DNA from: Isosphaera sp.
Lineage (GTDB): Bacteria > Planctomycetota > Planctomycetia > Gemmatales > Gemmataceae
Length of the DNA stretch: 64,000 nt
NCBI GenBank assembly: GCA_013822345.1
Contig: PNKH01000008.1
Span: 1 to 64,000 of the forward strand
Reading direction: 5' to 3'
Part shown: one piece after another, positions 2,508-21,406 of the stretch
Layout: each line of letters begins with the position of its first letter
How positions within the stretch are numbered: the stretch's first letter is position 1
Program-made: the position numbers and the translations under genes
The notes under the pieces: generated by a model
Told to the model about the DNA's origin: nothing
The model's input: the letters and a program-made list of their open reading frames with translations, nothing else
Database searches by the model: none

Positions 2508-3050
2508 CTACTTCAGGGCGTCGGCGGCGGCCTCGGCGATCTCCTTGGCCTTCTCCGCCGCGGACTTGGTGTCCTTGAAGGCGAAGTTCTTGTGGACGGC
2601 CCCGCCCCTCTTGTACACGACCACGGTGACGGCCGCGTCCTTGTTCAGGCTGTACTTCGGCGGCCCGTCCTTGTCCTCGGCGACGGTCAGCGGGGTGGTC
2701 AACTTGTGGGTCGTCTGCAGCTTCTCGAAGTCGGCGTCGGCGACGCCGCTCACCCCGACCACCACGGTCCCGAGCTTGGCGTTCGTCTTCTGCACCTCGT
2801 CCACGGACTTGACCAAACTGGCCAAGTTGTCGTCGGCCTTCTGGCTGAAGATCAGCACCACGGCCGGACGACCTTCCCCGTTGTACTTTCAGACATAGCA
2901 GAAGGTCTTGCCCTTGCTGTCGCCGGTGATCGCCTTCACCTGGAAGGGACCCCCGATCTTCTTCTCCGGGCCGGACTTGACGTCCTCCGCCCGGGCGGCC
3001 GACAGCGATACGATGATCGCCGCCAGGCCGACGCCCTGGAACAGTCGCAT
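2508..3050 (-). CDS. Candidate selenoprotein: exported thioredoxin-like protein with CxxU (in-frame UGA at codon 54)
   Basis: 180 residues if UGA is read through. ATG at 3050 is preceded by GAGGAG six bases upstream. A signal peptide (MRLFQGVGLAAIIVSLSAARA) leads into a domain that matches the neighbouring gene at 3138..3683 codon for codon. That neighbour has CYVCKYNGE; this gene has CYV, then TGA at 2889..2891, then KYNGE. After the TGA the frame is intact and closely similar to the paralogue to a TAA-free end at 2508. A CxxC before a hydrophobic strand (RPAVVLIF) suggests a thiol-redox protein in the cell envelope; Sec at the second Cys would make it a CxxU redox centre. A SECIS-like hairpin follows the TGA. 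The alternative is a recent nonsense mutation TGC to TGA, or a sequencing error; a decayed pseudogene is unlikely because the remainder is so well kept. Confidence 0.7.
2856..2885 (-). promoter_or_regulatory. Putative bacterial SECIS element immediately after the in-frame UGA
   Basis: Counting from the base after UGA, nt 8-11 (ACGG) can pair with nt 26-29 (CCGU). Nt 12-14 (GGA) can pair with nt 21-23 (UCC), with a GG bulge. The loop AGGUCG spans nt 15-20. Outer pairs 4-6 with 31-33 (one G-U) can extend it past one A-G mismatch. The E. coli fdhF SECIS loop is AGGUCU at nearly the same distance from its UGA. The codons here (GGG GAA GGT CGT) use wobble bases rare in this genome; the Cys paralogue has GGC GAG GCC CGC, which breaks two inner pairs. 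Folding was done by eye only. Confidence 0.55.
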
Positions 3051-3072: not shown

Positions 3073-3099
3073 CCCCACCCGGAACCGCTCCGGGTGGGG
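3073..3099 (-). terminator. Rho-independent terminator between the two paralogues
   Basis: Perfect 11-bp stem (3073-3083 with 3089-3099), 5-nt loop, followed on the minus strand by a run of five U (3067-3071). It lies downstream of the Cys paralogue at 3138..3683 and just upstream of the ribosome-binding site of the UGA-containing gene, so it should limit read-through from one paralogue into the other. Confidence 0.85.
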
Positions 3100-20599: not shown

Positions 20600-21406
20600 A
20601 TGCGGGCCCGAACACGGATCGCAGCAATCGGTTTGGTCCTCGCCGCCGGGCTGACCGCCGGCGGGCAGGACCCGGCGGCGACCGACAAGGTCCCGGTCCC
20701 GCCGGACGCGGTCCCGTCCGCGTTCCGCATGTTCCTGGTCACCGACGCCCGGTTCAAGCCGCTGGAGAACCCGGACGGGACCCCGCTCAAGGACAAGAAC
20801 GGGAACGACGTGCCGAACCCGAAGAACCGGCCGAACAAGATCCACTGCCTGGTGTGCGAGTACGGGCTGAACCCGGTGGTGGCGGTGTTCGTCCGCCCGG
20901 ACGCGAAGGACCTGGGGCCGGAGAGCGGGGTGGCGAAGTTGGCCACCCGGCTGAACGCCCTGGTCCCGAAGTACCGGTCGGACAAGCTGTCCGGGTTCGT
21001 CGCGTTCCTGAACCTCGACTTCAAGGACGAGGGCGGGGGGCCGACGGACCCGACGAAGAGGGTGACGGTCAAGAAGAAGCTCCCGGACGGGACCGAGGTC
21101 GAGGAGAAGGTGGAGCAGGACAAGGAGTACCCGGACGACGAGCGGCGGGTCGAGCGGGTCGAGTCGGTCGGCAACCTGGCCCGGGCCTTGGGCGGGGTGT
21201 CGGGGGTGCCGTTCGGGCTGGCCGGGTACAAGTCCAAGGCGCTGGCCGCGTGGGGGGTGGGGGACGACGAGGTGACGGTCATCGTGTACAACCGGATGCG
21301 GCGGGTCGGGGAGCCGTGGCGGTTCCCGAAGGCCGACGGCCTGACCGACGAGAAGATCGACGAGATCCTGAAGGCGGCGGTCGCGAGCTTCGTCAACCGG
21401 AAGTGA
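20600..21406 (+). CDS. Exported CxxC protein related to the tandem thioredoxin-like pair
   Basis: 268 residues, ATG at 20600 with GGAGGG seven bases upstream. A signal peptide (MRARTRIAAIGLVLAAGLTA) precedes a domain with CLVC at residues 83-86 followed by EYGLNPVVAVFVRP. That is the same CxxC-x-x-[YN]-x-x-P-x-V-x-x-[MIV]-F arrangement as in 2508..3050 and 3138..3683. The middle (about residues 145-185) is charged and probably an insertion. A thiol-redox role in the envelope is inferred from the motif. An upstream ATG at 20573 lacks a ribosome-binding site. Confidence 0.75.
   Translation: MRARTRIAAIGLVLAAGLTAGGQDPAATDKVPVPPDAVPSAFRMFLVTDARFKPLENPDGTPLKDKNGNDVPNPKNRPNKIHCLVCEYGLNPVVAVFVRPDAKDLGPESGVAKLATRLNALVPKYRSDKLSGFVAFLNLDFKDEGGGPTDPTKRVTVKKKLPDGTEVEEKVEQDKEYPDDERRVERVESVGNLARALGGVSGVPFGLAGYKSKALAAWGVGDDEVTVIVYNRMRRVGEPWRFPKADGLTDEKIDEILKAAVASFVNRK

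Follow-up and report, generated by a model that had tools for sequence, protein, structure and literature searches.

A putative exported selenoprotein family of Planctomycetota with a candidate two-hairpin SECIS element

Does an in-frame TGA in a planctomycete gene end the protein, or does it specify an amino acid? The question is raised by a minus-strand gene (3050 to 2508) in the 64,000-nucleotide stretch of Isosphaera DNA analysed here (the window). Read through, this UGA gene encodes 180 residues; codon 54 (TGA, 2889–2891, minus strand) is its sole internal stop, lying within the motif FCYVU and followed by 126 codons and a TAG stop. A tandem paralogue of 181 residues (3683–3138, also minus strand; 70% identity) carries CYVC instead, and the TGA aligns with the second cysteine of this motif. 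The original prediction, which placed the TGA opposite that cysteine and counted 126 codons beyond it, is borne out by the read-through translation and the paralogue's open reading frame, and the ribosome-binding site (GTGAGGAG) and signal-peptide-like N terminus that it described are both visible by eye. On the comparisons below, the UGA gene very probably reads its stop codon as selenocysteine. A third member of the family, distantly related, lies at about 20600–21300 on the plus strand of the window; it is a Cys form (HCLVCEYG) of longer sequence, with a weak profile match (20837–21016, 23.4 bits).

Within the bacterial family to which this genome belongs, 95 genomes were searched and 94 contain relatives of the UGA gene. 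Alignment of the fetched loci gave 118 distinct relatives: 54 with one in-frame TGA, 63 with a cysteine codon and one partial gene. All 54 TGAs occupy a single alignment column, the one in which the 63 others show cysteine, a placement beyond chance; the 54:63 ratio itself is no estimate of frequency, because fetching followed listing order, favoured TGA rows in one later batch and left out part of the listed rows. The matches listed in the 95-genome search have either no internal stop or one TGA. Across the phylum, a profile search detected relatives in 60 of 392 genomes, and of 48 proteins read from these and related loci, 21 have a CxxU motif with a single TGA, 25 have CxxC and two lack the motif. 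One of the 21 repeats a gene already counted; the other 20 are spread over ten further families of the phylum. The two states thus alternate at one column across relatives, as predicted, and where stops or frameshifts scattered elsewhere in the gene had been named as evidence against a selenoprotein, none of the 54 + 20 UGA genes has a stop other than the single TGA.

Coding constraint is found on both sides of this in-frame UGA, as expected of a bacterial selenoprotein whose homologues carry cysteine: dN/dS after the TGA is 0.04–0.27 (Nei–Gojobori, 17 pairs of UGA genes). On a FastTree phylogeny of 162 rows, in which many forks are weak, the Sec/Cys state changes 7 times, against a mean of 53 with shuffled labels, suggesting few switches and placing tandem UGA and Cys copies in old, separate lines. 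Seven genomes have UGA and Cys genes as neighbours, the Cys gene leading in six of them, and one genome has a UGA/UGA pair. The predicted Cys backup copy in tandem is thus borne out only in part: the arrangement recurs, but the two copies represent old sister lines and no recent duplicate. Relatives are not independent, so the p values given here are only indicative. A divergent subfamily (L023_2208, L183, L184, L221 and L237) has CPVU in place of CYVU or CLVU, and two relatives in the same superfamily, L188 (G000:C71) and L190 (G374), lack any CxxC in the matched part.

The host genome (7.47 Mb, 95% complete) encodes the components of selenocysteine insertion that the original prediction proposed to look for: SelA (553.7 bits, cut-off 268), SelB (365 bits, cut-off 242), SelD (384 bits, cut-off 125) and tRNA-Sec (selC; 79.6 bits, confirmed by ARAGORN, anticodon TCA), so that selA, selB, selC and selD are all present, as in bacteria that make selenoproteins. 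Of the 60 genomes of the phylum sample that contain a family member, 18 of 19 with a TGA gene have SelA at E ≤ 1e-70, versus 10 of 41 with Cys genes only (Fisher p 3.8e-7); the counts are 17 of 19 versus 8 of 41 at 1e-100, and 16 of 19 versus 9 of 41 for tRNA-Sec of at least 65 bits (p 8.8e-6). Within the bacterial family SelA does not discriminate, because nearly all genomes have it (above cut-off in 85 of 95). Of the 47 family genomes with a TGA member among the matches listed, 7 lack it; four of these have a strong tRNA-Sec, and in G039, G077 and G082 (TGA-bearing; 95, 59 and 88% complete) neither SelA nor a strong tRNA-Sec was found. Together with the alternation of UGA and Cys and the lack of other stops, this machinery supports the predicted selenoprotein.

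The same genome carries a putative second selenoprotein, a UGA-bearing FwdB/FmdB (TIGR03129, 453.6 bits, cut-off 327.8; L197, G000:C56), whose in-frame TGA (1504–1506) lies in a UHxP motif (HTSLUHGPTE) of the kind listed for the FwdB family in PMC13188914. The hairpin downstream of this TGA has the loop AGUU, at a distance of 25 nt. A search for formate dehydrogenase as a known-selenoprotein control returned nothing over cut-off in this genome, and a weak row with a TGA in that search turned out to be FwdB.

Folding of the UGA genes revealed two adjacent hairpins downstream of the UGA, P1 nearer to it and then P2. The distal P2, our proposed SelB-binding hairpin, is CUUGGCCAGUUUGGUCAAG in the window (2808–2826, minus strand; MFE −8.6 kcal/mol, z −4.2 versus dinucleotide shuffles). 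Its 19-nt consensus, CYUGRCC[RGUYU]GGUCARG, forms 8 bp, or 7 if the loop is taken as 5 nt, and its distance from the UGA is fixed at 56, 59 or 65 nt. All eight pairs form in 62 of 74 UGA genes (48 at 56 nt, 12 at 65 nt and 2 at 59 nt) and six in a further seven; the remaining five reach 3–5 pairs and are counted as lacking P2 (L045 twice, L135, L183 and L184). The CPVU subfamily is divided in this respect, with P2 present in L023_2208, L221 and L237 and absent from L183 and L184. In 88 Cys genes the interval +41 to +89 contains a perfect hairpin twice and a 7-pair hairpin 19 times. The loop follows R-G-[UG]-Y-U in 69 of 74 UGA genes, the 62 perfect hairpins having AGUUU (30), GGUCU (17), AGUCU (12), AGGUU (2) or AGGCU (1). 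Double changes in the stem of 58 distinct, unselected P2 sequences fill 15 cells versus 2.0 in shuffles, with none of 500 shuffles as high.

P2 can also be found with the protein ignored. The exact pattern CYTGRCCRGTYTGGTCARG has 64 matches in 49 of the 95 genomes, and the reversed pattern has none. Reading of 30 loci covered 31 occurrences: 29 lie in UGA members of the family whose TGA stands 56, 59 or 65 nt upstream, and the other two have no TGA nearby; 34 further matches lie outside the loci read. Nine of the loci read played no part in deriving the pattern, and these gave seven new UGA members, each with the TGA 56 nt upstream, and two misses. Within the window the pattern occurs once at up to two mismatches, at 2808–2826. 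One Cys member, L148 (G447), has a consensus P2 exactly 56 nt after its Cys codon, the sole such case among the 88 Cys genes. Because its genome also has SelA and tRNA-Sec, L148 looks like a recent Sec-to-Cys change, and its P2 like a fossil SECIS.

P1 occupies 2829–2872 (minus strand; MFE −22.9, z −3.9 versus dinucleotide shuffles). It is variable, with a median length of 35 nt (range 29–50), and its sequence, register and apical loop differ among lineages; without a fixed register it yields only a weak consensus fold when the wider set is aligned. Against synonymous-codon shuffles, the P1 region gives mean z values of −2.39, −1.77 and −2.11 in three sets of UGA genes (17, 38 and 19) versus −0.22, −0.23 and −0.59 in the matching Cys genes (24, 39 and 25). 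A sliding window tested in the same way finds extra structure in UGA genes only, from 6 and from 12–18 codons past the UGA (mean z at +6 of −1.99 and −1.81 in UGA genes of two subfamilies, and −0.29 and −0.26 in their Cys counterparts). The energy of nt 0–51 past the UGA does not separate the two groups (mean z −0.34 for UGA and −0.21 for Cys, p 0.72); this interval cuts P1 and misses P2. RNAalifold on nt 0–48 gave no convincing fold, with seven pairs with no double changes in 15 of 16 first-subfamily UGA genes (L024, with a deletion, is excluded) and four pairs in 33 second-subfamily sequences. In sum, a conserved RNA structure of the kind expected for a bacterial selenoprotein lies downstream of the UGA and is absent from the Cys homologues, the tandem paralogue included. 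The original prediction had put a SECIS at 2850–2895; our candidate overlaps this interval, but it consists of two hairpins spanning 2808–2872, further downstream and of a different build.

How does this arrangement compare with known bacterial SECIS elements? The consensus model of PMC13188914 (Fig. 2 legend) has a stem of 4–16 bp, a loop of 3–9 nt with G in its first two positions, an MFE of −7.5 or below and a spacing of 16–37 nt from UGA to apical loop, with the loop pattern N1-G-[G|U]-N-N2 in section 5. P2 agrees with the stem, loop and energy rules (8 bp, RGUYU, −8.6 kcal/mol in the window) but not with the spacing: in all 69 genes with at least six P2 pairs, 60, 63 or 69 nt separate its loop from the UGA, with P1 intervening. 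With P1 taken out, the loop comes to a median of 25 nt from the UGA (17–31), within 16–37 nt in 69 of 69, a result that is arithmetic and no test, because the space available limits how large an intervening hairpin can be and so partly dictates the outcome. The E. coli SECIS minihelix (ggttgcaggtctgcacc, 17 nt), as excerpted from PMC3834832, contains GGUCU, a loop shared by 17 of the 62 fully paired P2 copies; its stem sequence is unlike that of P2, and the excerpt describes no intervening hairpin. FwdB shares with the UGA gene the use of UGA for a putative selenocysteine and a downstream hairpin whose AGUU also occurs in P2 loops, but its spacing is the canonical 25 nt and no spacer hairpin is seen, whereas the UGA gene has P1. 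Because P2 fits the loop, stem and energy rules, the FwdB loop lies at 25 nt and the P1-removed median is also 25 nt, we assign P1 as the probable spacer and P2 as the probable SelB site.

The roles could be reversed, with P1 as the SECIS bound by SelB and P2 as an accessory structure or ribosome-pausing element. P1 does have the canonical spacing from the UGA, and it deviates more from synonymous shuffles, yet it is P1 whose sequence, register and apical loop vary, while the P2 loop is held to R-G-[UG]-Y-U, fits the N1-G-[G|U]-N-N2 pattern of section 5 of PMC13188914 and shares AGUU with the FwdB hairpin. We regard the reversal as unlikely.

A further hairpin lies in the 5′ leader of the UGA gene (3073–3099, minus strand). 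It has the pentaloop GCGGU and is followed by TTTTT, which makes it terminator-like for the upstream Cys gene. In the leaders of related genes it lies 20–40 nt 5′ of the start codon, with pentaloop [GA]NNG[UG]; in the first subfamily it is conserved just ahead of the ribosome-binding site in UGA and Cys genes alike. Among first-subfamily genes, 13 of 16 with UGA and 10 of 24 with Cys have it; the second subfamily has it in 5 of 37 and 1 of 23, respectively, and the third in 0 of 16; outside the family it occurs in 1 of 20 UGA and 0 of 23 Cys genes, shuffles giving at most 0.5 on average. Pair counts for these leaders overstate pairing, because 27 of 40 were chosen for having the hairpin. In this genome the leader model R1 matches the UGA gene's own leader best, on both strands, and the weaker matches that were read lie inside genes or beside other genes. 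As a SelB site the leader hairpin is not favoured: its loops (mostly GCGGU or ACUGG) are unlike P2, and it also precedes Cys genes.

The leader bears on a regulatory reading of the locus, in which the UGA would be a switch that responds to selenium, and the 53-residue product, or the lack of it, would count for more than the full-length protein. The hairpin and T-tract would suit such a switch, and the Cys copy could cover the function under selenium shortage, but strong constraint across all 126 codons after the UGA indicates that the full protein is used, making this very unlikely. A suppressor tRNA that inserts cysteine or tryptophan at UGA in place of selenocysteine would yield a working protein in the case of cysteine, the sole alternative residue at the column. 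Against it, other genes of this genome end in TGA, the Cys paralogue using it as an ordinary stop; the genome has SelA, SelB, SelD and tRNA-Sec along with a UGA-bearing FwdB; the occurrence of TGA genes follows that of SelA and tRNA-Sec; and the RNA structure is UGA-specific. On the machinery, FwdB and this structure we reject recoding as another residue as extremely improbable. A pseudogene or sequencing error, that is, a nonsense mutation in a copy made redundant by the adjoining Cys gene, is refuted by the relatives and has negligible probability, given 54 of 54 stops that are TGA in one column in many genera, the same column in ten other families, and the low dN/dS after the stop.

We are thus highly confident that the best explanation is an exported CxxU selenoprotein, belonging to a thioredoxin-fold family of Planctomycetota, whose UGA is decoded through a two-hairpin P1/P2 SECIS. 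Conservation of the UGA, its alternation with Cys, coding constraint, the Sec machinery and an RNA structure confined to UGA genes all support this by comparison. Selenocysteine would take the place of the second cysteine of CxxC in an exported thioredoxin-fold protein, bringing selenium into the product. SelB may bind P2, with its 8 bp and RGUYU loop, to direct decoding of the UGA; P1, folded between UGA and P2, would act as a spacer that shrinks the 60–69-nt path to the P2 loop to about 25 nt, the distance found in the FwdB gene of this genome. It is likely, in our judgement, that this is a distinct class of bacterial SECIS, in which P1 folds out and the distal P2 acts as if about 25 nt away, serving a phylum-wide exported family with its redox motif ahead of the first core strand.

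An AlphaFold2 model of the family (53 aligned members, Cys in place of Sec; pLDDT 90.3, pTM 0.84) predicts a thioredoxin fold of the TlpA/ResA–peroxiredoxin type. Foldseek and VIA-align place it nearest to Bcp/peroxiredoxin and ResA/TlpA proteins, with Bcp1 (3drn) the top Foldseek match and ResA (2h1b) superimposing with Z 15.8 and 2.4 Å over 134 residues. A PDB sequence search gave no meaningful match, and in Pfam the family has no match above cut-off, AhpC-TSA reaching 13.8 and 17.2 bits for the two tandem proteins of the window (cut-off 26). In ResA and peroxiredoxins the active-site cysteine stands at the N terminus of the helix that follows the first core strand. The predicted model shares their overall fold but places CxxU (residues 51–54) before that strand, at the start of a short helix (52–57) ahead of strand 63–69; the segment past the strand, SQKADDN, has no cysteine, and C51 and C54 are the only invariant Cys columns. 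The fold part of the predicted exported thiol-redox family thus agrees with the model. As to activity, fold, motif and signal-like N terminus suggest a thiol/selenol oxidoreductase that probably works outside the cytoplasm, via a Cys51–Sec54 pair.

By sequence, the family is spread through the phylum and is not found in the catalogues searched. NCBIfam 20.0 has no model for it: the UGA-gene product matches none, and 53 members hit only four stray models (E 0.0024–0.0075), each in one or two members. PMC13188914 names other CxxU selenoproteins, several of thioredoxin class by name (for example, Prx-SUH NF045827 and Trx7/PDZ NF041199); they share CxxU with the family, but NCBIfam models of this group have no meaningful match to the 53 members scanned. 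The 119-family table of that 2026 review has, in the part available, no entry with the family's combination of features, and the words planctomycet and Gemmata are absent from its text. Selenoproteins of marine Planctomycetes include FmdB, according to excerpts of PMC4807772; the family is not mentioned in the excerpts of deep-Sep (PMC12013277) or PMC5029168, and the listings from full-text searches of the open-access literature show no such family and no two-hairpin SECIS.

If the reading is right, standard annotation would be cutting a widespread set of selenoproteins at codon 53, and SECIS searches confined to 16–37 nt would miss the RNA signal of this family. It would offer a testable case for how SelB copes when the SECIS is far from the UGA, and nature supplies the controls: adjoining Cys paralogues free of the hairpins, the Cys member L148 with its P2, and, within this one genome, an FwdB SECIS at normal distance. 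The shifted position of CxxU would, in turn, pose a structural question about thioredoxin-fold enzymes.
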